DNA of 36,052 nt from Thermoplasmata archaeon (GTDB taxonomy: Archaea > Thermoplasmatota > Thermoplasmata > Lutacidiplasmatales > UBA184), in assembly GCA_027365105.1 (NCBI GenBank), contig DAHXNZ010000015.1, positions 1 to 36,052 of the forward strand, read 5' to 3'. Positions 13,588 through 29,652 of this stretch are shown piece after piece. Each line of letters opens with the position of its first letter. The first letter of the stretch is position 1. Made by a program: the position numbers and the translations under genes. The notes beneath the pieces were generated by a model. The model saw nothing but the letters and a program-made list of their open reading frames with translations. It was not told the origin of the DNA and ran no database searches.

Positions 13588-15086
13588 CCCCGAGACCGCA
13601 GCTCATCGTGACCCTCACGTCCCGGTCCCTGGACGGAGCCCGCGCGGAACTCGCGGAGGCGGCTTCGGCCGGGGCCGATCTGGCCGAGATCCGGTGGGAT
13701 CGATGGGAGCCACGGGAACGGCCCCGCGTGCCCGAGCTGTTCCCGGCCCCGCTCCCTCTCCTGCTGACGATCCGCTCCCGGGCGGAGGGGGGCGAAGGAC
13801 CGGACGACCCGGCGGAGCGCGACCGTCTCCGCCGTTCGATCGCCCTCTCGGGCTGGGCTGCCCTCGACCTGGAGGCCGGCCGGGACGCCCTCCCTTCGGT
13901 GGGGGGAACTGTCGGTGCCCCCACCCTGTGGCTCTCGACGCACCTGCCGCCCGAAGCGTCGGAGGCCGACCTCGACCGGGAGCTCCAACGCCCGGTACCG
14001 CCCGGGATGGTCCGCAAGATCGTCGTCCCGGGCAGCTTGGGCGCCGGGCTCGAGACCGGGCTCTCCCGGGCACGGCAGGCCGCCCGGGCCGGAGTCACCC
14101 TGCTGACGACCGGCCCCGCGGGGCCGCTCGAGCGGGCGTGGGCGCAGCGGCTCGGGCTGCCCTACGTCTTTGCCGCGCCCCCCGAGCGGCGGCCCACCGA
14201 TGCGGGCCGGAGGGTCGAAGCGGCCCAGCTTCCCGTCGATCGGCTGCATCGCTTCTACACCCAGGATCCAGCGGCGCCGCTCTTCGCCGTGATGGGCCGG
14301 CCGGTCTACCACTCCTGGAGCCCCTGGATCCACCACCACTGGATGGACGCCGACCGCCGGCCCGGCCTCTACCTGGCCCTCGAGCCGGGCTCGGCCGACG
14401 AGTTCGTCGGCGTACTCCCTCGGCTGGCCGGAGGCGGGTTTCGGGGCGTCAACGTGACCGCCCCGTTCAAAGGCGCGGCCCGGGAGGCCGCCACCCAGCC
14501 CGGCCCCACCGTCGAGGCGGCGGGATGCGCGAACACGCTCACCTTCGAGGGCGACCGGATCCGGGCCGACAACACGGACCTGATCGCGGTCCGTCGGAGG
14601 CTGGGCGAGCTCAGGGATTCGTCCGTCTGGAACGGGGAGCGGCTCGGGGTCGTCGGCACCGGAGGATCGGCCCGGTCGGCCGTGGTCGCCGGCCGCGACC
14701 TTGGGGCCCGGGTGGCCGTGTGGGGCCGCCGACCCGAGGCGGCGGACCGGCTGGCCCGGGAGCTCGGGGTCGAGCGCTGGTCCCCCGGACGTTCATCGGC
14801 CCACCCGCTGGTGATCCACGCGACGCCCGTCGGGCGGGGAGGTCCGGCGGGGGGCCTCCCGGTCCGGGAGATGCTGGCGCCGTCCGGCCACCTGCTCGAC
14901 TTCGTCTACGCCGCGACCGACCGGAGCCTGCGGGACGCGGCGGCAGCCCGGGAGGCCACGTACGAATCCGGCCTCCGGTTGCTTCTCTATCAGGCCGCGG
15001 CCTCGTACCAGATCTGGTGGGGGGCTCCCCCAGCCCCGGGGCTTCTCAGCTCGACCCTTCGCGAGGTGGAGCCATGCGAGGCGTAG
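13584..15086 (+). CDS. aroDE: Bifunctional 3-dehydroquinate dehydratase (type I)-shikimate dehydrogenase
   Basis: A 500-residue fusion performing the next two steps. Residues 1-225 are a type I dehydroquinase: AEIRWDRW, LLLTIRSRAEGG, H120 (LSTH) and the Schiff-base lysine K145 (VRKIVVPG). Residues about 230-500 are shikimate dehydrogenase: GRPVYHSWSPWIHHHW (238-253), GVNVTAPFKG with catalytic K296, ADNTD with D332, the NADP-loop GTGGSARS (358-365), and the C-terminal ESGLRLLLYQAAASYQIWWG. Both active sites look complete; the usual NTDxxG appears as NTDLIA. The linker is short. ATG at 13584 overlaps the previous stop and has GAGGA just upstream. The same AroD-AroE domain order is known from plants and some bacteria. 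Confidence 0.94.
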   Translation: MTPRPQLIVTLTSRSLDGARAELAEAASAGADLAEIRWDRWEPRERPRVPELFPAPLPLLLTIRSRAEGGEGPDDPAERDRLRRSIALSGWAALDLEAGRDALPSVGGTVGAPTLWLSTHLPPEASEADLDRELQRPVPPGMVRKIVVPGSLGAGLETGLSRARQAARAGVTLLTTGPAGPLERAWAQRLGLPYVFAAPPERRPTDAGRRVEAAQLPVDRLHRFYTQDPAAPLFAVMGRPVYHSWSPWIHHHWMDADRRPGLYLALEPGSADEFVGVLPRLAGGGFRGVNVTAPFKGAAREAATQPGPTVEAAGCANTLTFEGDRIRADNTDLIAVRRRLGELRDSSVWNGERLGVVGTGGSARSAVVAGRDLGARVAVWGRRPEAADRLARELGVERWSPGRSSAHPLVIHATPVGRGGPAGGLPVREMLAPSGHLLDFVYAATDRSLRDAAAAREATYESGLRLLLYQAAASYQIWWGAPPAPGLLSSTLREVEPCEA

Positions 15087-15922
15087 GGCGGGCCGCGGGG
15101 GCGATGACCTTCCTGAACGCCCTCTTCACAGGGATCGGGGCGGCCGCCGCGCTCCCGATCGGGGTCGAGGCCCGGGCGGAGTTCCGGTCGGGCGCGACGC
15201 CCGACGGCGCGTCCAGCCCGCTGGTCTCCCGGGCCGTGACGCTGGCCGTCGCCGAATGGGGCTCGCCGTCGACCGAGCCGATCGGGGTCACGGTGGAGTC
15301 CGAGATTCCCCCCGGTCAGGGCCTCAAGAGTTCGAGCGCCGTCGCGTCGGCCACCCTCGCGGCGGTCGCGGATCTCCTCGGAGCCCGCCCGGCCCCGTTC
15401 GAAATCGCCCGGCTGTCGGCCCGGGCCGGCCGGGCGGAGGGCCTGAGCGCGACCGGAGCCCTAGACGATGCGCTGGCCGGGGTCGCGGAGGGCGTCGTGG
15501 TGACCGACAACCGGCAGGATCGCTGGCTGGGCACCCATCCGGTCCCCGAAGAGTGGGGTGCGGTCGTCTTCGCCGCCGATCGGCCCCATCCTCCCTCTCC
15601 GGCCCTGGCCGACCGCTTCGCCCGGTTCCGCTCGAGGGCCGCACCGGCCGAACGGATGGCCCGGGACGGCGACCTGATCGGGGCCCTCAACGCCAACGGC
15701 GAACTGGTCGAATCGGTCATGGGCTACGACTACGGGACGATCCGGGCGGCCCTCCGCGATGCGGGCGCGGTGGCGGCGGGTGTCTCGGGCCTCGGACCGG
15801 CCCTGGTGGCGGTGGGACCGAGGGCCCGGCTTCCGGCGATGCGGGAGGTCCTGCCCAGTCCGGGCCGGCAGTACGCCTTCCCCCGGCTCGGTCGCGGACC
15901 GTTCGCTGGAGTGCGATCATGA
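15074..15922 (+). CDS. Shikimate kinase, GHMP-kinase type
   Basis: The archaeal, non-homologous shikimate kinase that phosphorylates shikimate with ATP. In 282 residues the GHMP phosphate-binding loop PPGQGLKSSSA (79-89) is intact, with ATGALDDALAG downstream and GVSGLGPALVAVG near the C-terminus. The ATG at 15074 overlaps the end of the aroDE frame by 13 bp and has GAGGTGG at 15063-15069; a second ATG at residue 11 (MTFLNALFTG) is also a good protein start. Position in the operon agrees with its step in the pathway. Confidence 0.92.
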   Translation: MRGVGRAAGAMTFLNALFTGIGAAAALPIGVEARAEFRSGATPDGASSPLVSRAVTLAVAEWGSPSTEPIGVTVESEIPPGQGLKSSSAVASATLAAVADLLGARPAPFEIARLSARAGRAEGLSATGALDDALAGVAEGVVVTDNRQDRWLGTHPVPEEWGAVVFAADRPHPPSPALADRFARFRSRAAPAERMARDGDLIGALNANGELVESVMGYDYGTIRAALRDAGAVAAGVSGLGPALVAVGPRARLPAMREVLPSPGRQYAFPRLGRGPFAGVRS

Positions 15923-17199
15923 GCCGGCTGAGGATCCTGCCGCACCCGCTCCGGGGGTCGATCCGGGGCCCGCCGTCAAAGAGCTACACCCACCGGGCGC
16001 TCGTCGCGGGTCACCTGACCGGGCGACGCTACCGGCTGCGGCGGCCCCTGGACTCCCAGGACACCCGGGCGACCGTGCGGCTCCTCGAGGCGCTCGGCAC
16101 CCGGGTGGAGCGACGCCCCGCCGTCTGGACCTTGATCCCCGATCGGCCCCGGTCCGGGCGGACCCGCCGCGTCGACTGCGGGGAGTCCGGAACCACCCTC
16201 CGATTTGCGGTCCCGTTGGCCGCCCTCTCCCCGCACCGGGTCCGCCTGGTGGGGGCCGCCCGGCTCGCTGCCCGGCCGCTCGGCCCTCTCCTGAGGGCCG
16301 TGACGCACTTGGGGGCCCGAGTCGACTCCCCGCCGCCGGAACGGGGCGGACTCCCGCTCGAGATTGAGGGCCCGATCCACGCGGGCAGGATCGCCCTATC
16401 GATGTCGGAGAGCTCCCAGTTCGCCTCGGCGCTCTTCCTGACCCTGCCCACCCTCCACGGACCGTCCGAGATCCGCCTGAGGGGCGCGATCGTCTCCGAA
16501 CCGTACCTGGACGCCACGCTGGCGGTCCTCCGGTTCCACCGCGTGGATGCGACGCGAGCGGGGCGGCTCTTCTCCACGCCGGGGTTCCAGCAGTTCCGGG
16601 GAGACCGCCTGGAGATCCCGCCCGATGCCTCCTCGGCCGCCTATCTCTGGGCCGGAGCGGCGGCCTCGGGGGGCCGGGTGACGATCGCGGGGTTCGGCCC
16701 CGAATGGCCGCAGGCCGATCTGGCCGTTCTCGACCTCCTCGAGGCCTGGGGCGCCGAGGTGGCGCGCCGATCGGACCGGGCCACCGTCGCGGCCCACGAA
16801 CGCCGCCCCATCGACGTCGACCTGACCGGCACCCCGGACCTGCTTCCCCTCGCCGGGGCGCTGGCGGCCCTGACCCCGGGCCGAAGCCTCCTCCGCGGGG
16901 CCGGCCACGCCGCGTTCAAGGAGTCGGACCGCCGATCGACGACCGCCCGGCTCGCCCGTTCGCTCGGGGCCCGGGTCCGGGTCGGCCCGAGGACGATCGA
17001 GATCGTCGGCCGGACCCTGCCCCGGTCGATCCGGCTCACCGATCTGACCGACCACCGGCTCTTTCTGAGCGCGATCGTGGCCGCCCTGGCGCTGCCGGCG
17101 CCGTCGGTGCTCGGGCCCGTCGAGGCGGCGGCGAAGTCGTTTCCCACGTACCGGACGGTCTTCGGATCGGCGGGAGCACAGATGGAGCGAGTACGATGA
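15919..17199 (+). CDS. aroA: 3-phosphoshikimate 1-carboxyvinyltransferase (EPSP synthase)
   Basis: A 426-residue EPSP synthase that adds the enolpyruvyl group of PEP to shikimate 3-phosphate. Visible are GPPSKSYTHRA with K21, the PEP-loop CGESGTTLR (87-95), SSQF (165-168), TPDLLPLAGA with catalytic D306, KESDR (334-338), DHRLFLSAIVAA and the final SFPTYRTVF. All core catalytic positions seem present; the PEP loop differs from the NAGTAMRP of plant-like class I enzymes. Coupled by ATGA at both ends. Confidence 0.95.
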   Translation: MSRLRILPHPLRGSIRGPPSKSYTHRALVAGHLTGRRYRLRRPLDSQDTRATVRLLEALGTRVERRPAVWTLIPDRPRSGRTRRVDCGESGTTLRFAVPLAALSPHRVRLVGAARLAARPLGPLLRAVTHLGARVDSPPPERGGLPLEIEGPIHAGRIALSMSESSQFASALFLTLPTLHGPSEIRLRGAIVSEPYLDATLAVLRFHRVDATRAGRLFSTPGFQQFRGDRLEIPPDASSAAYLWAGAAASGGRVTIAGFGPEWPQADLAVLDLLEAWGAEVARRSDRATVAAHERRPIDVDLTGTPDLLPLAGALAALTPGRSLLRGAGHAAFKESDRRSTTARLARSLGARVRVGPRTIEIVGRTLPRSIRLTDLTDHRLFLSAIVAALALPAPSVLGPVEAAAKSFPTYRTVFGSAGAQMERVR

Positions 17200-18284
17200 G
17201 CATGGAATGGGGCGTCCGGATGCGCGTGACGGTCTTCGGGTCGAGCCACGGGCCCGAGGTGGGGGCCCGGATCTCCGGGATCCCGAAGGGGACTCCGGTC
17301 GATCCCGACCGGATCCAGGCCGATCTGGATCGGCGACGGCCGGTCGGCCGCCGGCTTGCGACGCGCCGTCAGGAGGAGGACCGGCTCGTGATCGACTCGG
17401 GGATCGTCGAGGGTCGCAGCGACGGCGCCGAGATCCGGGCCCATGTGGCCAACACCGACGTCCAGCGGGCCCCCTACGACCGGCTCCGCCGGACTCCGAG
17501 GCCGGGCCACGCCGACTATCCGGCCCGGATCCGGTACGGAGAGGAGGCCGACCTGTCGGGGGGAGGGATCTTTTCCGGACGGATGACGGTGGGACTCGTG
17601 ATCGCCGGCGGCATCGCCCGGCAGATGCTCGCGGCCCGGGGAATCGAGGTCGCGGGCTTCACCCAGGCGATCGGGGGGATCGAGGCGAACGTCCCGGAGT
17701 CGCTCCCGATGCCGGAGATCTCCGCCCGGCGCGACCTCCATGAGGTCGGGACCGCCGATCCGACGGTCGCCGGGGCGATGGCCGACGCGATCGCGGCGGC
17801 CCGTCGGGAGGGCGACAGCCTCGGCGGAGTGGTCGAGGTGCGGGCGACCGGTCTACCGGTCGGCCTCGGCGAGCCGTTCTTCGACTCCATCGAGAGCGTG
17901 GTCGCGCACGCGGCCTTCTCCGTGCCGGCCGTCAAGGGGATCGAGTTCGGGGCCGGCTTCCGGGCGGCCCGGATGCGGGGGAGCGAGCACAACGACCCGT
18001 TCTACTGGCTCGGGGACCGGGTCGCGACCCGGACCAACCACGCGGGAGGGATCCTGGGAGGGCTCGCGACCGGAATGCCCCTGACGGTCCGGTGCGCCGT
18101 CAAGCCGACCTCCTCGATCGCCCGGCCGCAGGCCACGGTCGATCTCGACCATCATACCGACACCACCCTCACGGTCACGGGTCGGCACGACCCCTGCATC
18201 GTTCCCCGCGCCGTGGTGGTGCTCGAATCGGTGACGGCGATGGCCCTCGCCGATCTCGGCCTTCGGGGGGGATTCCTGCCGTGA
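17196..18284 (+). CDS. aroC: Chorismate synthase
   Basis: A 362-residue FMN-dependent enzyme producing chorismate from EPSP. It has GHADYPARIRYG, RTNHAGGILGGLATGMPL, VKPTSSI, and GRHDPCIVPRAVVVLES at the C-terminus. The first signature normally reads FGESHG; here it is FGSSHG (14-19), so the usual Glu is Ser while the catalytic-region His is kept. GGAG at 17184-17187 is a good ribosome-binding site for ATG 17196, which overlaps the aroA stop. It closes the shikimate half of the operon. Confidence 0.95.
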   Translation: MSMEWGVRMRVTVFGSSHGPEVGARISGIPKGTPVDPDRIQADLDRRRPVGRRLATRRQEEDRLVIDSGIVEGRSDGAEIRAHVANTDVQRAPYDRLRRTPRPGHADYPARIRYGEEADLSGGGIFSGRMTVGLVIAGGIARQMLAARGIEVAGFTQAIGGIEANVPESLPMPEISARRDLHEVGTADPTVAGAMADAIAAARREGDSLGGVVEVRATGLPVGLGEPFFDSIESVVAHAAFSVPAVKGIEFGAGFRAARMRGSEHNDPFYWLGDRVATRTNHAGGILGGLATGMPLTVRCAVKPTSSIARPQATVDLDHHTDTTLTVTGRHDPCIVPRAVVVLESVTAMALADLGLRGGFLP

Positions 18285-19363
18285 GCGACGAACGGATCCC
18301 GGTCGCCGTCCTGGGGGCGGCCGGCTACATCGGCCAGGAGTTCGTCCGCCGCCTCGCCGATCACCCCCGCTTCGACCTCCGGATCCTCGGGGGCACGGCG
18401 CGCCGGAAGGGCGCCCGGCTCGAGGACCTCTGGCATCTCGACGACCCCCCTCCCGAAGGCCGGGCGAACCAGACGCTGGAAACCCTGGGGCCGTCGGCCC
18501 TCCAACGACGGGGCATCCGGGCGGTCTTCTCGGCGCTCCCCTCCGGGATCGCCGGTCCCATCGAAAGCGAGCTCGCCCGCCGCGGCATCGCGGTCTTCTC
18601 GAATGCGGCCGACCACCGGATGGACCCCGAGGTCCCGCTCCTGATCCCCGAGGTCAACGGCGACCACCTTCGGCTCGCCGACCGCCGGCCGGCGGGCCGG
18701 GGGCTGCTCGTCACCAACGCCAACTGTTCGACCACCGGCCTCGTGCTGGCGCTGGCCCCGGTCCGGGAGCTGCTGGCTCCGAAGACGGTCCAGGTGACGA
18801 CCTACCAGGCCCTGAGCGGGGCCGGCCTGCCCGGGGTCTCCGCGATGACGATCACCGACAACGTCGTTCCGTACATCCCGGAAGAGGAGGAGAAGATCGA
18901 GCGCGAAACGGCCCGGATCTTCGGGCGGCTAGGCGACGGCCGGATCGCGGCCTGGCCGGGCCGGATCCTGGCCCAGTGCGCCCGGGTCGGGACCCGGGAC
19001 GGGCATCTCCTCGCCGTGACGGTCGAGGCCACCCGACGTCCGACCCGGGCCGAACTCGAACGGGCCTGGACCGACTTTGACCCGCTCGGTCGCGAAGGCC
19101 TCCCGACGGCGCCCTCCCCACCGGTCCTGCTGCGTCGGGAGCCGGACCGGCCCCAGCCGCTCCGGGATCGCTGGGCCGGCGCCCCGCCGAGGGCCCGAGG
19201 CATGGCGGCGGTCGTGGGGCGGATCCGCTGGGAGGCTCCGTATCTGAGATTCTTCACCCTCACCCACAACGCCGTCCGAGGCGGGGCGGGCGGATCGGTC
19301 CTGAACGCGGAACTGGTCGATCGCCGGGGGATTGCGCTGACGGCCGGGGGCGCCGATGGCTGA
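18281..19363 (+). CDS. asd: Aspartate-semialdehyde dehydrogenase
   Basis: A 360-residue NADP-dependent enzyme reducing aspartyl phosphate to aspartate semialdehyde. The N-terminal nucleotide loop VLGAAGYIGQ, catalytic C149 (TNANCSTTGL), the SGAGLPGVSAMTITDNVVPY insert-region and catalytic H242 (TRDGHLL) are of the archaeal/fungal subfamily. In this operon it plausibly feeds ADH synthase, which uses the semialdehyde, as well as lysine, threonine and methionine synthesis. The GTG at 18281 overlaps the aroC stop (GTGA); the aspartate kinase gene starts 8 bp before its end. Confidence 0.95.
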   Translation: MSDERIPVAVLGAAGYIGQEFVRRLADHPRFDLRILGGTARRKGARLEDLWHLDDPPPEGRANQTLETLGPSALQRRGIRAVFSALPSGIAGPIESELARRGIAVFSNAADHRMDPEVPLLIPEVNGDHLRLADRRPAGRGLLVTNANCSTTGLVLALAPVRELLAPKTVQVTTYQALSGAGLPGVSAMTITDNVVPYIPEEEEKIERETARIFGRLGDGRIAAWPGRILAQCARVGTRDGHLLAVTVEATRRPTRAELERAWTDFDPLGREGLPTAPSPPVLLRREPDRPQPLRDRWAGAPPRARGMAAVVGRIRWEAPYLRFFTLTHNAVRGGAGGSVLNAELVDRRGIALTAGGADG

Positions 19364-20675
19364 TTCCGCCCCGATCGTGCTCAAGTTCGGTGGCGCCGCG
19401 CTCTCCGACCCGGCGAAGGTCCTGCGCTGGGTCCGCCTCCGGGGCGCCCGGGGCAACCCGCTCGTGGTGGTCGTCTCCGCCCGGGAAGGGATGACCGACC
19501 GGCTGCTTCGATCGGTCCGGCGGCCGATCCGGGAGCCCTCGATCCGCCGGCTGATCCAGGAACTCCGCCAGCGTCATCCGGCCCCGGCGGCCGAGGTCGA
19601 TCCGATCCTCGAGACCGTACGCTCGACGGTCCGAAAGATCGGCAGCGGCCGATCTCCCGATCCGGCGGACCTCGACCGGCTTGCGGCCCAGGGGGAGCGG
19701 CTGGCCGCCGTCTGGCTGGCCGGCGAGATGAGTCGCCGGGGGATCGCCGCGACATCCGTGGACGCCGATCGGCTCGGGCTCCGGACCGACCGGCACTTCG
19801 GGTCGGCCCGGATCCAGGTCGAGGCGTCCCGGCCGGCGGTGCGCCGGGGGATCGGGCGGATCTGGGCCCAGGGCCGGGTCCCGGTGGTGACCGGCTTCTT
19901 CGGTCGGGGGCCCGGAGGGACCGTCACGACGCTCGGCCGGGGGGGCTCGGACTACAGCGCGACGGCGCTGGGGGCGATCCTCGGGGCCCGACGGGTCGAG
20001 CTCCTGAAGCAGCGGGTCTCGATCCGGTCGGCCGATCCGCGATGGGTGGCCCGGTCCCGGCCGCTCGGCTACCTCTCCTATGAGGAGGCGGAGGAACTGG
20101 CCCAGTTCGGGGCCCGGGTGCTCCATGCCTGGGCGATCGAGCCGGCCCGGCGGGCGGGCATCCCGATCCTGGTCCGGTCGCTGGCCGATCCCCGGCAGAC
20201 CACCACCGTCGGACCGGCGATCGACCATGGCACCCCCCGGGCCCTGACGGTGGTCCCGTCGCTCCGGCTCCTCGGTCTCCGGGTTCCGGGCGGCCGGGAT
20301 CAGCCCGGCATCATCGCCGAGGTGACCCGATGTCTGGCCGAATCCCAAGTGAACCTCGTCCAGCTCTACACGTCGGCGACCCTGCTCTGCGCGATCGTCG
20401 AGTCCCGGCAGGCCGGCCGGGCCCGGCGGGCCCTGGCCGGCCTCGCGCGGCACCGGGATGCGGTCGCCGAGCCCCCCCAGGCGGTCAACATGGTGATCGC
20501 GATCGGCGAGCGGATCCTCGAGGATATCCGCCGGCTGCCGATTTCGATCCTCGAGTCCACCCTCGGCGTGGCGGCCACCCCCCGGGCGCTGTCCCTGGCC
20601 GTCCGGGACTCCGACCTGGGTCCGACCCTCCGGGCCCTCCACCGGGCGCTCGTCGAGGCGGAGATCCGCCCATGA
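19356..20675 (+). CDS. lysC: Aspartate kinase with an altered nucleotide-site motif
   Basis: A 439-residue protein aligning along its length with archaeal aspartate kinases: VLKFGGAAL (8-16), VVVVSAREGMTD, TDRHFGSARI (144-153), VTGFFGRGPGG, LGRGGSDYSA (193-202), ADPR (226-229), then C-terminal ACT-type regulatory repeats from about residue 285. It should phosphorylate aspartate for the dehydrogenase encoded just upstream. Oddly, the usual WTDV(D/P)G stretch of the ATP site reads LKQRVS (217-222), losing the Thr-Asp pair, and the lysine of AKVLHP is arginine (ARVLHA, 253-258). Either nucleotide binding is changed or activity is reduced; the rest of the active site looks intact. ATG 19356 overlaps asd by 8 bp. 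Confidence 0.88.
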   Translation: MADSAPIVLKFGGAALSDPAKVLRWVRLRGARGNPLVVVVSAREGMTDRLLRSVRRPIREPSIRRLIQELRQRHPAPAAEVDPILETVRSTVRKIGSGRSPDPADLDRLAAQGERLAAVWLAGEMSRRGIAATSVDADRLGLRTDRHFGSARIQVEASRPAVRRGIGRIWAQGRVPVVTGFFGRGPGGTVTTLGRGGSDYSATALGAILGARRVELLKQRVSIRSADPRWVARSRPLGYLSYEEAEELAQFGARVLHAWAIEPARRAGIPILVRSLADPRQTTTVGPAIDHGTPRALTVVPSLRLLGLRVPGGRDQPGIIAEVTRCLAESQVNLVQLYTSATLLCAIVESRQAGRARRALAGLARHRDAVAEPPQAVNMVIAIGERILEDIRRLPISILESTLGVAATPRALSLAVRDSDLGPTLRALHRALVEAEIRP

Positions 20676-21868
20676 CCGATCCCTGGGTCGAGTTCCGGTC
20701 CGCCCCGGGGGTCCGGACGGCGGCCACCGCGATCTACTTCGAGCGGACCGGGCCCGACCGGACCGGCGGGGTGGCCCGGTGGGCCGTCTCGCGGGAGCCG
20801 GCCCGCCCCGTCGGCCGGGCGGAGAGCTACGAGGCGCTGGCCCGGGAGTCGGACCGGCATCTTCGGGGTCACCGGCACCGGGCGGTCGTCGGATACCTCG
20901 GCTTCGATGCGGTCGGCCTTTCCGAGCCACGGCTTCGGACCCCGCCGGGCCGCTCCCCGTTCCCCCTCGGCGAGATCGCCTCGCTGGACCGGGTCCATGT
21001 CGCCCGGGTGCCCCCCCGGAGCCTCCGGATCCCCCGCGACCGGCGACCCCCGGGGCCCCCCCGGAGGGATACGTTGCCCCGCTCGGCGTACGAGCGCTCG
21101 GTCCGCCGCCTGATCGAGCAGATCCGCTCCGGGGAAGCCTTCCAGGTCGTCCTCGCCCACCGACGCGAGTGGGACCGGCCGGAGGATCTCCTCGACCGGG
21201 CGGGTCGGCTCCGGGCGACCGAGCGCGGCGCGTACTTCTACTACCTTCGGTTCGGCGATCGCGAGATCGTCGGAGCCTCCCCCGAGTCGGTGGTCGAGGT
21301 CGAAGGGCGTCGGGCCCGGGTCCATCCGATCGCCGGAACCCGACCCCGCGGCGCGGTCGGGGGAAGGCGGCCTCCGCTCACCGCCGATCCCAAGGAGCTC
21401 GCGGAGCATCGGATGCTCGTCGATCTTGCTCGCAACGACCTCGGCCGGATCGCCCGGCCCGGGTCGGTGCGGCTCGGCTGGACCGAACGGACCCTCCGGG
21501 TGGCCCGGATGGAACACCTGGTGAGCCGGGTGGAGGCGACCCTGGTTCCGGGGGCCGGCCCCTGGGAGGCGCTGGCCGCGACCTTTCCCGCCGGGACCGT
21601 CTCCGGAGCGCCGAAGCTCCGCGCGACCGAGCTCCTCCGTTCCGAAGAACGGACCTGGAGGGGCCCGTACGCCGGCACGGTCGGCTGGGTCTCCGCGCGG
21701 GACCGGGCCGACTGGGCCCTCGCGATCCGGACCGGCTTTGCCGCCGGCGAGCGGCTCTACACCGCGGCCGGGGCCGGGATCGTCCATCGATCCCGACCCG
21801 GCCGGGAGTTCGATGAGACCCGGGCCAAACTGGGGCTGGTCGAGTCGGTCCTGGCGGGGGACCGATGA
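20672..21868 (+). CDS. trpE: Anthranilate synthase component I
   Basis: The chorismate-binding subunit that makes anthranilate with the amidotransferase encoded next. In 398 residues the C-terminal catalytic motifs are all present: HPIAGTRPRG, HRMLVDLARNDLGRIARPG, FPAGTVSGAPKLRATELL, YAGTVGW and AAGAGIVHRSRPGREFDE. It is shorter than typical TrpE at the N-terminus, and I do not see the LLES-type element that carries tryptophan feedback inhibition. That would leave more weight on expression control. Aminodeoxychorismate synthase (PabB) is the alternative, but the trpGDCFBA neighbours argue for TrpE. ATGA overlaps at both ends. Confidence 0.93.
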   Translation: MTDPWVEFRSAPGVRTAATAIYFERTGPDRTGGVARWAVSREPARPVGRAESYEALARESDRHLRGHRHRAVVGYLGFDAVGLSEPRLRTPPGRSPFPLGEIASLDRVHVARVPPRSLRIPRDRRPPGPPRRDTLPRSAYERSVRRLIEQIRSGEAFQVVLAHRREWDRPEDLLDRAGRLRATERGAYFYYLRFGDREIVGASPESVVEVEGRRARVHPIAGTRPRGAVGGRRPPLTADPKELAEHRMLVDLARNDLGRIARPGSVRLGWTERTLRVARMEHLVSRVEATLVPGAGPWEALAATFPAGTVSGAPKLRATELLRSEERTWRGPYAGTVGWVSARDRADWALAIRTGFAAGERLYTAAGAGIVHRSRPGREFDETRAKLGLVESVLAGDR

Positions 21869-22449
21869 CGCGGGTCCTCGTCATCGACCATGAGGACTCC
21901 TTCGCCCAGAACCTGGTCCAGGAACTCGCCCGGCAGGGGGCCCGGGTCCGCTGCCTCCGATCGACCGTGCCGTTCCACGAGGCCGAGCGGATCGACCCGG
22001 AGGCGATCGTGCTCTCCCCGGGCCCGGGGAGCCCGTCGGATCGCCGACGGACCCGGCTCAGCCGCACGGTCCTGCGCCGATGGGGGTCGTCCCGGCCGAT
22101 CCTCGGGGTCTGCCTGGGCCACCAGCTGATCGCCGAATTCTGCGGCGGCCGGATCGTCCGGGCCCCCGAGCCGGTGCACGGCGACACCGACCGGATCGTC
22201 CACGCGGGCGACGATCTCTTCCGCGGGGTCCCCTCCCCGTTCCGCGCCGCCCGCTACCACTCGCTCCTGGTGGATGGGAAGTCGCTTCCTCCGGCCCTGG
22301 AACCCATCGCCTGGGGGACGGGAAAGGTGGTGATGGGAATCCGCCACACCGCCTGGCCGCTCCGGGGGGTCCAGTTCCACCCGGAGTCGTATCTGACCGG
22401 GCCCGGCCCGGCCATTCTCGCCAACTTCCTCGCGGAGGTCCACCGATGA
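21865..22449 (+). CDS. trpG: Anthranilate synthase component II (glutamine amidotransferase)
   Basis: A 194-residue class I glutamine amidotransferase supplying ammonia to TrpE. The nucleophile C83 lies in GVCLGHQLIAE, and the triad is completed by H172 and E174 in GVQFHPES; SPGPGSP (51-57) is the oxyanion-region signature. It may also serve p-aminobenzoate synthesis, as TrpG often does. Overlaps trpE and trpD by 4 bp each. Confidence 0.95.
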   Translation: MTRVLVIDHEDSFAQNLVQELARQGARVRCLRSTVPFHEAERIDPEAIVLSPGPGSPSDRRRTRLSRTVLRRWGSSRPILGVCLGHQLIAEFCGGRIVRAPEPVHGDTDRIVHAGDDLFRGVPSPFRAARYHSLLVDGKSLPPALEPIAWGTGKVVMGIRHTAWPLRGVQFHPESYLTGPGPAILANFLAEVHR

Positions 22450-23486
22450 CGGGGCGGCCCCCTCGTCGACCCCGGCGGGCCGGTGCGGGCCGCGGCCCGA
22501 CGCGGGCCCCGGAGGTGTTCGCCCGCCTGATCGCACCGGGGACACCCGACCCGGAACGGCTCACTCTGCTGCGGCGGACCCGGCGCTACCGCCTGACGGC
22601 CGGCCGGCTCCATCAATGGGCGGAGATGCTCCGCCGTGAGATGCTCCCGTTTCCGGCGGCGGCCGGGCATCGGACCCTGGAGCTCTGCGGCTCCGGGGGC
22701 GCCGCCCTCCCTTCGTTCAACGTTTCGACCGTGAGCGCCCTGGTCGTCGCTTCGGCCGGCGTGCCGGTCGTCAAGCATGGGAACCGGAGTTCCCGCGGTC
22801 TGACCGGATCGACCGACCTCCTGGAGGCGTGGGGGCTCCCGGTCGCCCGATCCCGGGCGTTCGGTGAAGCGAGCTACCGACGGTACCGGATTGCCTTTCT
22901 TCACGCCCCGCTCTACCATCCGGCCATGGGGCGCGTCGCCGCCACCCGCCGGAGGATCGGCCAACGGACGGTCTTCAACCTGATGGGCCCGCTCCTGACG
23001 CCGGTCCGGCCGGCCTACCAGCTGGTGGGAGCGCCGGACCGGGCCTCCGCCCGCCTCCTCGTCGAATGCCTCCGGCGCCGAGGCGTCGGGTGGGTGGTTG
23101 GACTGACCTCCGACGAGGGCAGTGATGAGATCGCCCCCCGGGGCTCGACCACGCTGCTCTGGGCGCTGGGGGATCGTCGGTCGTCGGCGACGCTCCACCC
23201 GGAGGCCCTCCTCGAACCGTCGGAGCGCCGGGGTCCCTGGGGCCCGCTGCCCCCGAAGACGGCGGCCCGGGCGGCCGATGCGGTGCTGGCCGGTGGCGGG
23301 GGCGCGCGGCGGGGTGCGGTCGTGCTGACCGCGGGAGCTGCGCTCCTCCTGGCGGGCCGGGCCGCCAGCCTGGAGGCCGGAGTGGCCCGCGCCCGTGAAC
23401 TGATCGACTCGGGCCGTGCCGAAGATCTGCGCCGCCGGCTCCAGGAGCTCGCCCTCGGATCCGACTGGCAGGAGGACGCGGCATGA
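22446..23486 (+). CDS. trpD: Anthranilate phosphoribosyltransferase
   Basis: A 346-residue enzyme joining anthranilate to PRPP. VKHGNRSSRGLTGSTDLLEA (109-128), HPAMGRVAATRRRIGQRTVF and the metal-binding SDEIAP are conserved. The diphosphate loop, usually GTGGD, reads GSGGA (82-86): the Asp is Ala. Substitution of this Asp in the Sulfolobus enzyme is, from memory, tolerated and reported to relieve magnesium inhibition. The first about 20 residues are Arg/Pro-rich. ATGA overlaps join it to trpG and trpC. Confidence 0.94.
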   Translation: MTGRPPRRPRRAGAGRGPTRAPEVFARLIAPGTPDPERLTLLRRTRRYRLTAGRLHQWAEMLRREMLPFPAAAGHRTLELCGSGGAALPSFNVSTVSALVVASAGVPVVKHGNRSSRGLTGSTDLLEAWGLPVARSRAFGEASYRRYRIAFLHAPLYHPAMGRVAATRRRIGQRTVFNLMGPLLTPVRPAYQLVGAPDRASARLLVECLRRRGVGWVVGLTSDEGSDEIAPRGSTTLLWALGDRRSSATLHPEALLEPSERRGPWGPLPPKTAARAADAVLAGGGGARRGAVVLTAGAALLLAGRAASLEAGVARARELIDSGRAEDLRRRLQELALGSDWQEDAA

Positions 23487-24277
23487 CGAGGGGGTTCCTG
23501 CCCCGGATGGTCGGCGAGCTTCGGCCGATCATCGAGGCCGGCGGATACGAGGCCGCGCCGGCCGGGACCGCCCCGCGCCCTTCGCTGCGGAAGGCGATTG
23601 AGGGGGACGCGCCCCGGGCTCTGATCGTCGAATACAAGCGGGCGGCCCCGGGGAGCCCGGGCCGGCCGCTCCCCCAGTACCGGACCGATGCGTTTCTGGA
23701 CCGGATCCGCGGGGCGCGCGTGGCCGGCCTTTCCTGCCTCACGGCGGCGCCTCACTTTGACGGATCCCCCTCCGACCTGCGCGCCCTGGCCGGCCGGGAC
23801 CCCCGGCCCATCCTCTTCAAGGACTTCGTCATCGACCGACGCCAGGTCGACTGCGCGGCCCGGATCGGAGCCTCGGCGATCCTCCTCCTGGCGTCGCTCC
23901 CCCGCGCGGGGATCGACGTTCCGTTGGCCGAGCTGGCCGACCGCGCCCACGCCCTCGGCCTGGAGGTGCTCCTGGAGCTGCATGCGCCGGAGGAGCGGGT
24001 CTGGATCGACCGGGTGCCGGCCGACCTGATCGGGGTCAATGTCCGGAACCTCGATACGCTGGAGATCGACCGGACCACCGCCTCGGCGACCCTGGAGGGA
24101 CTTTCCCACCGGAGCCCGGTGATCGGGCTCAGCGGCGTCACCGGACCCGAGAGCGCCGACTGGTTCTGGAGCCGGGGGGTGGAGGCGATCCTCGTCGGGA
24201 GCGCGGTGGCCCGGAGCGAAGAGCCCTTGAGGCTCCTGGCCTCCCTCCAACGCCGATCGGAGGGCGGGCCGGAATGA
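23483..24277 (+). CDS. trpC: Indole-3-glycerol phosphate synthase
   Basis: A 264-residue (beta/alpha)8 enzyme closing the indole ring. Catalytic candidates are E50 and K52 (VEYKRAAPGS), K113 (LFKDFVID), the LEVLLELH strand glutamate, N186 (GVNVRNLDTLEID) and the phosphate-binding GLSGV and ILVGSAVAR near the C-terminus. Not fused to TrpF, which follows as a separate gene overlapping by 4 bp. Confidence 0.95.
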   Translation: MTRGFLPRMVGELRPIIEAGGYEAAPAGTAPRPSLRKAIEGDAPRALIVEYKRAAPGSPGRPLPQYRTDAFLDRIRGARVAGLSCLTAAPHFDGSPSDLRALAGRDPRPILFKDFVIDRRQVDCAARIGASAILLLASLPRAGIDVPLAELADRAHALGLEVLLELHAPEERVWIDRVPADLIGVNVRNLDTLEIDRTTASATLEGLSHRSPVIGLSGVTGPESADWFWSRGVEAILVGSAVARSEEPLRLLASLQRRSEGGPE

Positions 24278-24918
24278 AGACCTTTGTCAAGTTCTGCGGG
24301 CTCACCTCGCCGGACCATTTCGGGCTCCTTCCCCGAGGCGGGGCGGCCGGCTTTGTCGTCGAGGTTCCCGGATCGCCCCGGACCGTCTCCCTGGAACAGG
24401 CGACGGCGCTGGTCTCGGCGGTGCCCCAGGGTATTGAGGCCTGGGCCGTGGTGGTCGACCCGACGGCCGACCGGATCCACACCCTGTTCGACGAGGTCGG
24501 CGTCGATCGGATCCAGGTCTATGGTTCGATTCCCGAAGGGCTCGACTTCCTCGAGCGGCACCACCTGGTTCCGTCCTTCCCCCTGCCCGTCGACCCGACG
24601 GCCCTGCCCACCCTCCCGCCGGCCGAGGAGTTTCCCCGGATCCATCTGGACGCCCCGGGAAGCCCCGCCCGGCCGGGGGGGAACGGCCGGCCGGCCAACT
24701 GGGAGGCCGCCGCCGCGCTCGCGGACCGGTATCCGGGGCGGAAGCTGATCCTGGCCGGAGGGCTCACGGCCGAGACGGCGGGGGAGGCCCTTCTTCGGGG
24801 CCGCCCGTGGGGGCTCGATGTCTCGACCGGCATCGAGTCCTCCCCGGGGGTCAAGGACCCGGAACGGATGCGGGCGTTCCTCCGGGCGGTCGAGGCGGTC
24901 GAGGAGGGGCATGCCTAA
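24274..24918 (+). CDS. trpF: Phosphoribosylanthranilate isomerase
   Basis: A 214-residue (beta/alpha)8 isomerase acting between TrpD and TrpC. C8 in [11 protein letters not shown] is the catalytic cysteine; [20 protein letters not shown] near the C-terminus holds the catalytic aspartate and phosphate loop. The QLHG element of many relatives reads QVYG. It overlaps trpB by 8 bp, and GAGGAGGGG at 24901-24909 inside trpF serves as trpB's ribosome-binding site. Confidence 0.93.
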
Positions 24919-26059
24919 CCGGTTCGGGCGCTACGGGGGCGCGTACGTCCCCGAGACGCTCGTCCCGGCGCTCCAGGAACTCGAGCGGGCCTGGGTGGAG
25001 GCTCGCCGCGATCCCGGGTTCCGCACCGAGCTCGCCGAACGGCTCCGCACCTACGCCGGGCGGCCGACGCCGCTCTACCGGGCGCCCCGGCTGACCCGGC
25101 GGGGGAAGGGAGCCGAGATCTGGCTCAAGCGGGAGGACCTCCTCCATGGCGGCGCCCACAAGATCAACAATGCGATCGGCCAGGGAGTGCTGGCCCGCCG
25201 GATGGGCAAGCCCCGGCTCATCGCGGAGACCGGGGCGGGTCAGCACGGAGTGGCGACGGCGATGGTCGGAGCCGCGCTGGGATTCGAAACGGTCGTGTAC
25301 ATGGGGGAACGGGACATCGCCCGGCAGCACCCGAACGTGCTGCGCATGCGCCTCCTCGGGGCGCGGGTGGTCCCGGTGACCACGGGGAGCCGCACGCTCA
25401 AAGACGCGATCAACGCGGCCCTGCGCGACTGGACCGAAAACCTCCCGACGACCCACTACCTCATCGGGTCGGTGGTCGGGCCGCACCCGTTCCCGACGAT
25501 CGTCGGCGCCTTCCAGAGCGTCATCGGCCGGGAGATCCTCTCGCAGAGCCGGGCGGCCTGGGGCGGTCCTCCCGACCTCGCGGTCGCCTGCGTCGGCGGC
25601 GGCAGCAACGCGATCGGCACCTTCCACCCGCTGCTGCGCCAGCCGACCGAGCTTCTCGGGGTCGAGGCCGGCGGGCCCGCCGGCCACCCGACCGGGGCCG
25701 CGTCCCTGACCCGGGGCCGCCCCGGAGTCCTCCACGGGAGCTACACCTATCTCCTGCAGGACCGGGACGGGCAGGTGCGGGAGACCGCGAGCCTCTCCGC
25801 GGGCCTGGACTACCCGGCGGTCGGGCCCGAGCACGCCCATCTGCAGGCGACCGGAAGGGCCCGCTACGGGGTGGTCCACGACGACGAAGCCCTCCGCGCC
25901 TTCCACTGGCTGGCCGAAGACGAGGGGATCCTGCCGGCCCTCGAGTCGGCCCACGCCGTCTACGCGGCCGTCCGGGAGGCGCGACGGCGCCGCGGGCAGC
26001 ACATCGTCGTCACCCTCTCCGGCCGGGGCGACAAGGACCTCGAGGTGATTCCGGAGTGA
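24911..26059 (+). CDS. trpB: Tryptophan synthase beta chain
   Basis: The PLP-dependent subunit that condenses indole with serine. In 382 residues the PLP lysine K84 ([13 protein letters not shown]), catalytic E106 (AETGAGQHG), the cofactor phosphate loop VGGGSNAIG and LSGRGDKD are clear. It is of the TrpB1 type that pairs with TrpA, encoded immediately downstream; the usual HTGAHK is HGGAHK. ATG 24911 overlaps trpF, and the GTG of trpA overlaps its stop. Confidence 0.96.
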
Positions 26060-26889
26060 CGGTCGGGGAGGCGCTGATCCGGAGCCGGCAGCTGGGCGAC
26101 TTCCTCGTCGTCCCCTACCTCCTCGTCGACCGACGGCGGACGGCGGCGGTCTCCGCCCGGGTTCGTCTGCTTCGGGAGGCCGGAGCCCATGCCGTGGAGG
26201 TCGGGATCCCCTTTTCCGACCCGATCGCGGATGGGCCGGTCCTGGCCGAGGCCGCCGCACGGTCGCTCCGGCACGGGACCGATTGGGCCGATGTCCTGGC
26301 GACTGTGCGGGCGGCCGCTCCCGAACTGCCGGTCGCGGTGATGTCCTACGTGAACCCCCTCCTTCGAGACGGGTCGCCGGGGACCTTCCCCGAGCTGGCC
26401 CGGGCCGGCGCGTCGGCCCTGATCGTTCCCGATCTCGCCGACGACGAGGCCGAGGGATGGTCGCCCCTCGCCCGGTCCCACGGACTCGATCTGGTCCGGT
26501 TCGTGGCCCCCGGCGTCCCCGCGGACCGGGTCCGGAGGATCGCACGGTCGTCCCGGGGATTCCTCTACCTGGTGACCCGGAACGGGATCACGGGCACCCG
26601 CGCCCCTTCGCCCGCACCCGACCTGAGCGCCCTTGTCCGGACCGCGCGGAAGGCGGCTCCCCGCCTCCCGATCCTCGCCGGCTTCGGGATCCGGGACGCC
26701 GCCACCGCGGGCGCGGCGGCCCGCCTGGGCGCCGACGGGGTGGTCGTCGGGTCGGCCCTGGAGGAGATCGGGGCGGGCCGAGATGCGGCGGAGCCGACCC
26801 GGGCCCTCATCCGCGCGCTCCGCTCGGGGCCGGATCAGATGGCGTTCACCAGGAACCCGACCAGAAAGCCGACCAGGATCCCCCAGTAG
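26056..26889 (+). CDS. trpA: Tryptophan synthase alpha chain
   Basis: A 277-residue (beta/alpha)8 subunit releasing indole from indole-3-glycerol phosphate. Catalytic E48 and D59 lie in [27 protein letters not shown] and VVVGSAL form the phosphate site. It begins with GTG in the trpB stop (GTGA) and is the last gene of the operon. Its final 55 bp overlap the 3' end of the ZIP-family gene on the other strand, so its C-terminal tail ([13 protein letters not shown]) is encoded opposite that gene's last membrane helix. Confidence 0.94.
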
Positions 26890-27635
26890 ACCAGCCGGGC
26901 GCGGTACCGGGTCGCCTCGGGGGTCTCCTGGGGCCGCAGCGCTCCCCGGATCATCGGCAGGAGCACGTAGAGGATCGCCCCCATGGCGAGCGCGTCGAAG
27001 AAGATCAGGAGCGGCACCGAACTGAACACGAACCCGATGAATCCGCCCGCGATGGTCGGCACCCCGCCGATCAGGAAGAGCCCCGAAAGCCGCCGCAGCT
27101 TCGCGGCGGCGTCGGCCCGGCCGAGGAGGGGAGAGATGATCGGGAACCCCTCGGTGATGTTCTGCAGGAAGAACCCCACAAAGACCACGCCCACGAGGCC
27201 GATTTGGCCCGCCGACCAGGCGGCACCGAAGACCAGCCCCTCGGTCAGGTTCTGGAAACCGATCCCCAGAGCGATGATGAGCGAGAGCCTCCAGGCCGTC
27301 TCCGCCGGCTCGGGCTCGGCCGGGGCGGCCCGCCGGCCGATCGGATGGCCCTCGGCCACGGTCAGGAGGCCGAACGCCAGCGTGACGCCGACCAGGAACA
27401 CCAGATCGAGGACCGGATCGGTGAGGTAGGCGGTCGTGGAGTCCGCGATCAGCGACGCCACATCCGAAAAGATGTCGGCCAGGAGGAACGCCAGGATCCC
27501 GATCGCCCCCGCGTTGAGGAGGAGGAGGGTGCGCCCCCCCATCGCCCGGCGGTTCAGGACGATCGGGAGCGAGAGGAAGATCGCGAGCCCGATCGCGACG
27601 GTGAGCACGACGAAGAGGTCGAAATTGCCCGCCAT
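26835..27635 (-). CDS. ZIP-family transporter-like protein lacking the canonical metal-site histidines
   Basis: A 266-residue membrane protein of about eight helices with the ZIP layout: a His/acid-poor loop after the third helix, then two helices carrying QNLTEG (128-133) and QNITEG (158-163). In zinc/iron ZIP carriers these read HNxxEG and HExxEG; here glutamine replaces histidine in both while Asn and Glu are retained. Specificity for zinc is therefore doubtful and another cation is possible. ATG 27635 lies about 29 nt from a TATA box. The gene is divergent from an HTH regulator with a ferritin-like tail, hinting at metal-linked control. Confidence 0.8.
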   Translation of the reverse strand: MAGNFDLFVVLTVAIGLAIFLSLPIVLNRRAMGGRTLLLLNAGAIGILAFLLADIFSDVASLIADSTTAYLTDPVLDLVFLVGVTLAFGLLTVAEGHPIGRRAAPAEPEPAETAWRLSLIIALGIGFQNLTEGLVFGAAWSAGQIGLVGVVFVGFFLQNITEGFPIISPLLGRADAAAKLRRLSGLFLIGGVPTIAGGFIGFVFSSVPLLIFFDALAMGAILYVLLPMIRGALRPQETPEATRYRARLVYWGILVGFLVGFLVNAI

Positions 27636-27660: not shown

Positions 27661-27668
27661 ATTTAAAT
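27661..27668 (-). promoter_or_regulatory. TATA box for the ZIP-like gene
   Basis: ATTTAAAT is self-complementary and centred about 29 nt from the ATG at 27635, giving a leaderless or nearly leaderless mRNA. Confidence 0.6.
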
Positions 27669-27675
27669 GATGGGA

Positions 27676-27703
27676 CGTGACGGCTCTCGACCGGCCCGTC
27701 ACG
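27676..27703. promoter_or_regulatory. Candidate operator between the ZIP-like and regulator genes
   Basis: CGTGACGG (27676-27683) and CCGTCACG (27696-27703) form a perfect 8-bp inverted repeat with 12 bases between. Half-site centres are 20 bp apart, about two helical turns, suiting a dimeric helix-turn-helix protein. It lies between the two divergent TATA boxes, close to the BRE of both. Confidence 0.5.
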
Positions 27704-27716
27704 GCGTGAACGCACC

Positions 27717-27723
27717 CTTTATC
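27717..27723 (+). promoter_or_regulatory. TATA-like element for the HTH regulator
   Basis: CTTTATC centred about 28 nt before ATG 27748, again consistent with a leaderless transcript. Confidence 0.45.
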
Positions 27724-27747
27724 CCTGCCCGGCCGGCTCCCGATGGG

Positions 27748-28554
27748 ATGCCGCGCGAACCCCGACCCCCGATCCTGTGGGTCCACCGGGTCCAGGCCCT
27801 GGTCGCCCGGGAGCTCGTCGAGGGGTTCCGGCTCTCCGCCCGGCGCGCGGCCGCCCGGCTGGGCATCGCGCCCTCGGCGATCTCGCAGTATCTCTCGGGC
27901 CGGCGCATGAAGGCCGAGCTCGCGGCCCGCCCGGGCCGTCCGGACGAGGAGCGGCTGATCCGTCAGGCGGCCCAGGAGCTCTCGACGACCCCGGAGCCGA
28001 AGCGGCCGGCCTCCACGGTCATCCTGGAGGTCGCGCTCAAGTGCGCGGCCCTGGAGGAGCGGAGCCCGGCCCCCGGAGCGGGCAGCCTCGACCGGCCCCG
28101 CGAGTCGATGCTGCGGCGCCGGTTGCGCGCCCGGATCCGGGCGGAGCAGCGGGCCGTGGCCGACTGCATGGGACTGGCCCAGAAGTCCCGGGACGAGCTC
28201 ACCCGGTCGGTCTTCCGGCAGATCGCCTCCGACAGCCTCCGCCACGCGGAGATCGCCGCCTCGATCGAGAGCCGGCTGGCCCGCGGCATCAACCGGACCG
28301 CCCCCTCGGGCGTGCGACGGGCGGACGTCGACCGGCTGATCGCCCGGGAGCGCCGGGCCGAGGCCGCCGCCGGCGCCGGCCTGGGGGCCGATCTGGGCGG
28401 TGTGATGCGGCTGCTCTGGGAGAGCATGGAGGCGGACGAGCGCAAGCACGATGCGCTGCTCCAGCAGCTGCGGACGCTCGAATCCGGACCCGGAGCCCGG
28501 GCCGCCCATCGGCCCTCCCGCGGCTCCGGTCGTGCCTCGACCCGGCCCCGGTAG
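27748..28554 (+). CDS. XRE-like HTH regulator with ferritin-like C-terminal region
   Basis: A 268-residue protein. Residues 28-52 (RLSARRAAARLGIAPSAISQ and then YLSGR) match the helix-turn-helix of archaeal COG2522-type regulators. The rest, about 120-240, is charged and helical: RAEQRAVADCM with E133, SDSLRHAEIAASIE with D162/H166/E168, a third helix with E201 and E204, and MEADERKHDALLQQL with E231-x2-H234. Acidic residues and histidines at such intervals recall the ferritin/rubrerythrin four-helix bundle, so it may sense iron or oxygen; only the last helix has a strict ExxH. ATG 27748 is supported by the TATA spacing; the frame is open further upstream, but that sequence holds the operator and promoters. 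The 25-residue tail is Arg/Ser-rich. Confidence 0.72.
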   Translation: MPREPRPPILWVHRVQALVARELVEGFRLSARRAAARLGIAPSAISQYLSGRRMKAELAARPGRPDEERLIRQAAQELSTTPEPKRPASTVILEVALKCAALEERSPAPGAGSLDRPRESMLRRRLRARIRAEQRAVADCMGLAQKSRDELTRSVFRQIASDSLRHAEIAASIESRLARGINRTAPSGVRRADVDRLIARERRAEAAAGAGLGADLGGVMRLLWESMEADERKHDALLQQLRTLESGPGARAAHRPSRGSGRASTRPR

Positions 28555-28587: not shown

Positions 28588-29652
28588 CTACGGGCGGATC
28601 CGCTCGATCGCGAGGAACCGGGGGGTCGCGCCCGGGTCCACGGCCGCCAGCAGAAACTGCTTGCGAACCCCCTGGGCGACCCGGACGGCGCCGGCGATCT
28701 CCGACCAGGCGGCCACGTGGGTGGACCGGACCGCCTGGACGAGATAGCGGGCGTGGACCTGCTCGGGGTTCCGAGGGTAGGCGCGGAAATGGGCGCCGTA
28801 CTTGAATCCGGTCTTGACGACGAGCCGCCGTTCCCTCAGATGCCGGTAGGTCGCGAGCCGCTCGTCGAACCGTCGGTCGAGCCGGCGGGCCCGGCGGTCG
28901 AACTGGGGCCGGGGGACCGTCCGACCGCTGCGGGCATCCCGCACGACCAGCTGGCGGGTCTCCTGGAGGTAGGCGGCCTCGAGGAGGCTCAGTTCGAGGC
29001 GGGCCCCGACCTGGGACCCGTAGGCGAGGTTCTTCCCGAGGTTGGCCACGGGGCCGGGGTCGAAGAGCAGCACCCGGTCCTCCGAGAGCCAGCCGGTGGC
29101 GCTCTCTTCGAGCGGGGGCGCGGTCAAGGCGCCGGTCGGCTGGCTGAACTTCAGCCGGTAGTAGGTCAGGTCCGACTCCTCGTCGACCACCCCGAGAAGG
29201 AGGCTCTTCTTGGTGCTCTGGGCCCGTTCGGTCAGTCCGATCAGCCGGCCGAGGTCGAACGGGCTCCGTTCGCTCAGGGCGTCCACCCAGTAGCGGGCCG
29301 GGGTCTTGTGCAGGATCCCGCCGCGCGGGAGGACGGCGAAGGCGATCGGGGGGGGGGAGGAGCGGACCACGTAGCCGCGCTGCCGGAGATCCCGGTAGAC
29401 GAGGTAGCGGACCCCGAAGCCGGGCTCGGACCGGGCGGCCCGACGGAACAGCTCGGGCCAGGGGGTCGGGCGCGGGCGGGTGCCCTGCACCTCGGCCCGC
29501 CCCATCTCGGTCAGGTAGGCGGTCTCGTAGCGGTCCATCTGGAGTCCGCCGCCCGGCCGGAGGGTGCCGAAGTACCCCCGGGCGTAGAGGGTCGAGGCCT
29601 CCGCCGGGTCGTTCCACTCGGCGGTCCCGTCGGGGAGGAGCCGACCGGTCAC
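28588..29652 (-). CDS. endA: tRNA-intron (splicing) endonuclease
   Basis: A 354-residue enzyme cutting introns from precursor tRNAs. The C-terminal catalytic domain has the full triad: Y292 (AHFRAY), H300 (EQVHARYLV) and K331 (GVRKQFLLA). The first half (about 1-170) is a degenerate copy of the same fold (RYLVYRDLRQRGYVVR, 82-97), so this is the long, tandem-domain form that acts as a homodimer. The GTG at 29652 overlaps the pyrE stop (GTGA). A run of ten C on the coding strand (G at 29348-29357) lies in the first domain. Last gene of the lipid operon. Confidence 0.93.
   Translation of the reverse strand: MTGRLLPDGTAEWNDPAEASTLYARGYFGTLRPGGGLQMDRYETAYLTEMGRAEVQGTRPRPTPWPELFRRAARSEPGFGVRYLVYRDLRQRGYVVRSSPPPIAFAVLPRGGILHKTPARYWVDALSERSPFDLGRLIGLTERAQSTKKSLLLGVVDEESDLTYYRLKFSQPTGALTAPPLEESATGWLSEDRVLLFDPGPVANLGKNLAYGSQVGARLELSLLEAAYLQETRQLVVRDARSGRTVPRPQFDRRARRLDRRFDERLATYRHLRERRLVVKTGFKYGAHFRAYPRNPEQVHARYLVQAVRSTHVAAWSEIAGAVRVAQGVRKQFLLAAVDPGATPRFLAIERIRP

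Follow-up and report, generated by a model that had tools for sequence, protein, structure and literature searches.

A protein that joins a helix-turn-helix (HTH) domain to a ferritin-like domain is encoded in a Thermoplasmata archaeon, divergently from a ZIP-like transporter gene. The questions raised by this locus are what the protein senses, which DNA site it uses and which genes it controls. The favoured reading, considered quite likely, is that of a one-component metalloregulator with a small regulon in divalent-metal import, the ferritin-like domain acting as the putative sensor. What the computations show directly is the domain composition, the conserved ligands, the operator with its occurrence alongside the regulator, and the partner transporters.

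The locus and the DNA-binding domain

The window (the whole stretch of DNA analysed, 36,052 nucleotides) includes the following features, given by position, strand and type.

26835..27635, minus strand: ZIP-like transporter, QN-type (QNLTEG and QNITEG in place of HNxxEG).
27661..27668, minus strand: TATA-like box of the transporter, ATTTAAAT, about 26-33 bp ahead of its ATG.
27676..27703, no strand: 8-12-8 repeat, CGTGACGG-N12-CCGTCACG (arms 27676-27683 and 27696-27703, starts 20 bp apart).
27677..27709, minus strand: conserved operator core TCAC-N3-GTGA-N18-TCAC, three half-sites, complete match.
27698..27710, no strand: palindromic part of the operator, GTCACGGCGTGAA, TTCAC-N3-GTGAA; sole KTCACNNNGTGAM site in the genome.
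27718..27724, plus strand: TATA-like box of the regulator, TTTATCC, about 24-30 bp ahead of ATG 27748.
27748..28554, plus strand: regulator gene; HTH (residues 28-54), linker helices and ferritin-like domain (residues 116-244).
27829..27909, plus strand: HTH_3-type DNA-binding helices (Pfam HTH_3), residues 28-54, SQYLSG motif.
28093..28479, plus strand: ferritin-like domain, from profiles, alignment and model; helices A 116-146, B 150-178, C 191-207, D 218-244; ligand-type residues E133, (S163), H166, E201, E231, H234.

The two divergent genes are separated by an intergenic region of 112 bp. Both look leaderless, since a TATA-like box lies 24-33 bp before each start codon; that of the regulator is identical in the closest relative (L002). 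The start codon of the regulator is most likely ATG 27748, where the homologue alignments begin. A start at 27667 was rejected: this position falls within the TATA box of the transporter, and homologues align from 27748. The regulator is followed by a tRNA-splicing endonuclease gene (28588-29652, minus strand), and a long stretch of aromatic amino acid genes occupies about 12500-26900 of the window, the last one encoding tryptophan synthase alpha. Flanking genes were read from translations, except these two named genes.

The window protein matches Pfam HTH_3 (PF01381) with E=4.8e-4 and 20.5 bits (cut-off 23 bits), and 41 of 46 homologues match it at E<=0.1 (best 5.4e-6). Every Pfam cut-off lies above the window protein's own scores (for Rubrerythrin, 11.8 against 22.8 bits). 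The full-length model (mean pLDDT 88, pTM 0.57) comprises the HTH helices, two linker helices (65-80 and 88-105) and four long helices. HTH proteins are the top matches in a full-length profile search of the PDB; a fold search with the full-length model gave no match at E<=0.001. The HTH coupled to a helical, ferritin-like C-terminus, proposed by the sequence-only reading, is borne out by profiles and model.

Operator and partner transporters

The sequence-only reading had pointed to a repeat with half-sites 20 bp apart between two divergent TATA boxes, and its sequence, its positions and the boxes are as described there. The 1.83-Mb genome has no second exact copy of the 8-12-8 string. Of 2000 shuffles of the 112-bp intergenic region, 114 (5.7%) gave a perfect inverted repeat of 8 bp with a gap of at most 24; such a repeat is therefore unconvincing alone. 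The search upstream of homologues that had been suggested does recover a conserved operator, made of TTCAC-N3-GTGAA plus a third half-site and not of the 8-12-8 form: two core half-sites of the repeat are conserved and its arms overlap with the operator, but the outer bases of these arms vary in relatives.

The element GTGA-N-TTCAC-N3-GTGAA is common to the divergent intergenic regions of relatives. Where ZIP and regulator genes form an operon, ZIP is preceded by the same element, with its orientation relative to ZIP unchanged. In the window the third half-site is GTGA at 27677-27680, 18 bp from the palindrome. Across the sites compared, the third half-site stops 4-12 bp (most often 10-11) short of an AT-rich TATA-like hexamer of the transporter, just upstream of the BRE. 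Column counts of 39 sites with a spacer of 16 show near-fixed TCAC, GTGA and TCAC and nearly free spacer bases; as these sites were picked by similarity, the half-site values are inflated, the spacing being not trivial.

Co-occurrence with the regulator was scored in same-genus genomes with the pattern TTCAC-N3-GTGAA-N15-18-TTCAC (at most 4 mismatches). ZIP places (71) were reduced to 69 rows by removal of G026:C15 (contig end) and of the fragment G033:C73; three of the 69 (G011, G048, G066) have no upstream DNA, and 66 ZIP upstream regions were scorable. The pattern was found in 46/52 of those from regulator-bearing genomes versus 2/14 of those from genomes lacking the regulator (resampled controls, 2.65%; Fisher p=2.8e-7, uncorrected for phylogeny, the genomes being related and the counts non-independent). 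Three of the six misses (G016, G042 and G049, corresponding to L046, L058 and L045) have a palindrome without mismatch further upstream, two (G016b, G473) represent a second copy of ZIP, and in G058 the regulator adjoins an Nramp gene (L054). The two matches in regulator-less genomes come from assemblies that are 69% (G057) and 56% (G034) complete.

The exact composite pattern occurs in 18/78 genomes (reversed-pattern control, 0), at 19 sites: 14 precede ZIP, 4 precede Nramp and 1 is unassigned. The operator is also found in trans, upstream of several ZIP genes unlinked to the regulator (e.g. in G004, G039, G060 and G063). The distant homologue L059 has GTTAAC-type repeats where others have GTGA ones. 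A broad regulon was considered and rejected: the genome of the window has a single KTCACNNNGTGAM site, and a genus scan allowing 2 mismatches gave mostly scattered sites. Several of the latter recur as near-identical strings in several genomes and are probably coding background. In L006, L007 and L018, a variant palindrome, CTCACNNNGTGAG, lies about 30-50 bp ahead of the regulator start; it is possibly autoregulatory.

A metal transporter gene is found beside the regulator in 45 of 58 loci (ZIP, 38; Nramp only, 6; NicO only, 1). The 38 ZIP loci are operons (18), divergent (16), divergent plus Nramp (2), divergent plus NicO (1) or have ZIP downstream (1); all Nramp-only loci are divergent. For the other 13 loci, the flank examined lacks a metal transporter: in 6 the regulator lies behind a haem-oxygenase-like gene, and 7 have neither (2 are truncated). 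Representative neighbours match Pfam Nramp (3.1e-38), NicO (6.6e-91) and Haem_oxygenas_2 (3.4e-17). In L059 (24-27% identity), ZIP is likewise divergent from the regulator. A NicO-type nickel/cobalt transporter gene adjoins the regulator in L042 and L045; an operator ahead of NicO was rejected, as none was seen upstream of this gene in L042. Because the partner swaps among ZIP, Nramp and NicO, the link with metal is stronger than could be known from the window. The regulator appears to control metal importer genes through a small conserved DNA site.

The divergent transporter of the window is a variant, as had been noticed. In ZIP transporters, TM4 and TM5 carry metal motifs of the HNxxEG type; these are absent from the window transporter, in which QNLTEG and QNITEG have Gln for His in both. 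QN-type motifs are found in 61/70 ZIP relatives and HN-type ones in 9/70, N and E being kept in all 70; a Pro near the end of TM6 is present in 61/70, with Glu or Gln there in the HN-type. Both classes occur with the regulator. Pfam Zip scores are 8 bits for the window, 18.6 for L013 and 40.4 for L050 (cut-off 35.1).

Three observations concern other genes of these loci. In the Nramp-like partners of L048 and L053-L056, where DPGN and MPH motifs are expected of Nramp, DVDAAS stands at the DPGN position and MPF replaces MPH (L053 is incomplete); the metal site of this partner may be unusual. A decayed second copy of the regulator (L058, G042:C25) lies beside an operator-bearing ZIP gene in a genome with an intact copy elsewhere. 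A haem-oxygenase-like gene (PF14518/TENA-type) at 10863-11558 (plus strand) of the window is 82% identical to the gene directly upstream of the L007 regulator, and has relatives also in L003-L006 and L018.

The ferritin-like domain and the proposed mode of regulation

By sequence profile the C-terminal domain belongs to the ferritin-like superfamily: Pfam Rubrerythrin is matched at E<=1 by 46/46 members of the domain alignment (best 3e-6), the domain of the window alone scoring 14.1 bits (cut-off 22.8). The best natural matches of the domain profile in the PDB are weak (mini-bacterioferritin and encapsulated ferritin, E 0.006-0.04); the matches also include designed helical bundles, of which one is a diiron protein.

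E133, H166, E201, E231 and H234 are invariant in 48/48 aligned homologues (L058, decayed, and L060, truncated, are left out of this count; L004 and L007 are left out of A1 and A2, A1 being the profile, as near-duplicates). The sixth ferritin-type position, in helix B, is Ser163 in all 48 (Arg in the decayed copy), in place of the Glu of ExxH in ferritin-like proteins. The set E, ExxH, E, ExxH of ferritin-like diiron proteins is therefore present for five ligands of six, the first ExxH being SxxH, and the classical diiron site is incomplete. Spacing is regular (E133-30-S163xxH166; E201-30-E231xxH234). The ligand-type residues are also kept in L059, and eight more loci from the GTDB family have the same ones in the segments compared. 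In an alignment with an EncFtn-like protein of the same class, Glu falls on S163 and His on H166. The ferritin-like spacing of Glu/Asp and His proposed earlier is therefore retained, with its five ligands, except for the helix B Glu, and the lack of conservation that would have spoken against it was not found.

Modelled alone, the domain forms four long helices (pLDDT 93, pTM 0.82). Foldseek superposes helices A-B on the EncFtn of P. furiosus (5n5e_A; prob 0.99, 59 columns at 0.7 A) and the whole of sulerythrin at about 11.4 A only; the domain alone gave no Foldseek match at E<=0.001. A second structural comparison gave mono-Fe sulerythrin (7o90_B; 0.9 A over 59), at a Z of 9-10 that unrelated long-helix proteins equal. 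The four helices anticipated by the sequence-only reading are thus predicted, but tight superposition is limited to A-B, so the closed canonical bundle is not seen in the monomer model. Sulerythrin is a swapped dimer, and one reading of the A-B versus C-D arrangement in the model is a similar swap.

The ferritin-like domain probably senses metal ions. DNA binding, metal binding, the metal concerned, the oligomeric state and the sign of regulation are what we infer, as follows. A dimeric XRE-type HTH would bind the TCAC-N3-GTGA palindrome, and a further subunit the third TCAC half-site, beside the BRE/TATA of the transporter. Bound there, the regulator would control divalent metal import, through a ZIP-like transporter here and Nramp or both in relatives. 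Metal held by E133, H166, E201, E231 and H234, perhaps where two subunits of a dimer meet, as happens in encapsulated ferritin, would alter how the HTH heads are held. The metal-free form would activate uptake, and activation would be lost upon metal binding. This sign is favoured because the operator lies directly upstream of BRE/TATA: in the extracts of PMC4158304, activation is associated with archaeal sites located upstream of BRE/TATA and repression with those located downstream, and in those of PMC7830388 the CopR motif is directly upstream of the BRE at genes raised by CopR.

The main rival to apo-activation is a metal-activated repressor with DtxR/MntR-like logic, in which metal-bound dimers beside the BRE block TFB and shut import when metal is plentiful. 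It is a plausible alternative, though not the expected one. Co-repression would suit the physiology of an importer equally well, and at both divergent promoters the BRE has half-sites right next to it, but the site lies upstream of BRE/TATA, neither over nor downstream of it, which is the position of activation in the two sources just given, as far as their extracts go.

It is unlikely that the signal is oxygen or peroxide, read through the oxidation state of a diiron site bound in the bundle, rather than metal supply. Ferritin-like diiron sites do react with O2, C140 and M141 (each in 47/48) are near the site, and a haem-oxygenase-like gene (PF14518) precedes 6/58 regulator genes. However, 18/19 exact operator sites are at ZIP or Nramp, not at oxidative-stress genes, and the bridging-type Glu has been lost, which speaks against a diiron centre that is reactive. 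Equally improbable is a metal-free domain serving as a mere dimerisation scaffold, with another ligand or none being sensed: the invariant Ser at one ligand position and the conserved non-ligand residues (among them R129, R157, R165 and D162) would fit, but the remaining five ligand positions are unvarying across 48 sequences whose identity falls as low as 24%, and the targets are metal transporters. That the 8-12-8 repeat itself is the operator, of a dimer with half-sites spaced by 20 bp, is very improbable and was rejected, perfect and unique in the genome as it is, given its frequency in shuffles and the fact that relatives keep TTCAC-N3-GTGAA and the third half-site, not its outer bases.

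Known systems and distribution

Short HTH proteins of Thermoplasmatota (open frames of 111-155 aa), which we take to be COG2522-like, have the same HTH: profile A1 matches over about positions 19-85, with E 1e-10 to 1e-7. They end in a CxxC-type motif (for instance CRIC in L083, L086 and L090), where the regulator has its ferritin-like domain. A literature search for COG2522 found no papers.

Encapsulated ferritin (EncFtn) and sulerythrin/rubrerythrin share with the regulator domain the superposable helices A-B and an aligned E...ExxH frame; they differ in the Glu of the first ExxH (Ser163 in the regulator). The regulator has no encapsulin or rubredoxin part, its DNA-binding domain is fused and transporter genes are adjacent. 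Rubrerythrin proper has a C-terminal rubredoxin-type Cys4 domain; this is absent from the regulator, whose translation has two Cys only (99 and 140). The regulator is also distinct from the encapsulated ferritin type (two helices, E32/E62/H65-type site, encapsulin cargo), as the equivalent of Glu62 is Ser163 and four helices plus an HTH are present. In the extracts of PMC5012862, the diiron ligands of R. rubrum EncFtn (Glu32, Glu62, His65) come from two chains, and the dimer is stabilised by iron.

DtxR/MntR, Fur and NikR are functional analogues, with a small metal-import regulon and an operator at the importer promoter, but have no sequence relation to the regulator (none of these families is among the Pfam matches of the window protein at E<=5). 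BRUTUS/BTSL2, hemerythrin-type iron sensors (PMC12022348), likewise use a helical diiron-type domain to sense iron; their fold is different and their output is a ubiquitin ligase, not DNA binding. In Pyrococcus furiosus, the metalloregulator CopR, also archaeal, has its palindrome immediately ahead of the BRE, as here; its metal is copper (PMC7830388, in extracts), and it is likened by site position, not by protein family.

One-component metalloregulators are a known class, and the putative ferritin-like sensor fold is new as far as seen. The literature search found no ferritin-like or diiron transcription factor and no ferritin-like plus HTH regulator, which is weak evidence of absence, subscription journals being thinly covered. 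Leaning slightly to the doubtful side is the fuller proposal of a first transcription-factor family with a ferritin-like bundle as sensor. In it, the storage/oxidase fold, with its bridging-type Glu changed to Ser, would have replaced the Cys tail of the archaeal HTH protein, and metal at a swapped dimer interface would set the span of the HTHs on the three half-sites, hence the recruitment of TFB/TBP to ZIP and Nramp promoters. The sensor folds of known metalloregulators are limited in number (DtxR, Fur, ArsR, NikR, MerR and others). If true, the ferritin-like sensor would add a new one, the iron-storage fold would be tied to gene control, and a catalytic metal site would apparently have been tuned into a sensor by a single ligand change. 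With a defined operator, a regulon of one or two genes and natural variants (ZIP, Nramp), the proposal is testable at once in vitro.

A DtxR-family domain is found in 67/78 genomes of the genus, and Fur exceeds the cut-off in 1/78. The regulator is therefore not the sole candidate metal sensor, and the idea that it substitutes for all other metalloregulators was rejected on the same count.

The regulator profile is matched in 54/78 same-genus genomes. HTH plus ferritin-like fusions were profile-searched within the phylum: in a phylum-wide draw of 389 genomes, matches on the full-length scale are restricted to the family of the window, and many other lineages have the short HTH protein only, with a CxxC-type tail in those examined. 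The fusion seems to be an innovation of this lineage, derived from a more ancient HTH family. One homologue, L059 in G094, is found outside the family.
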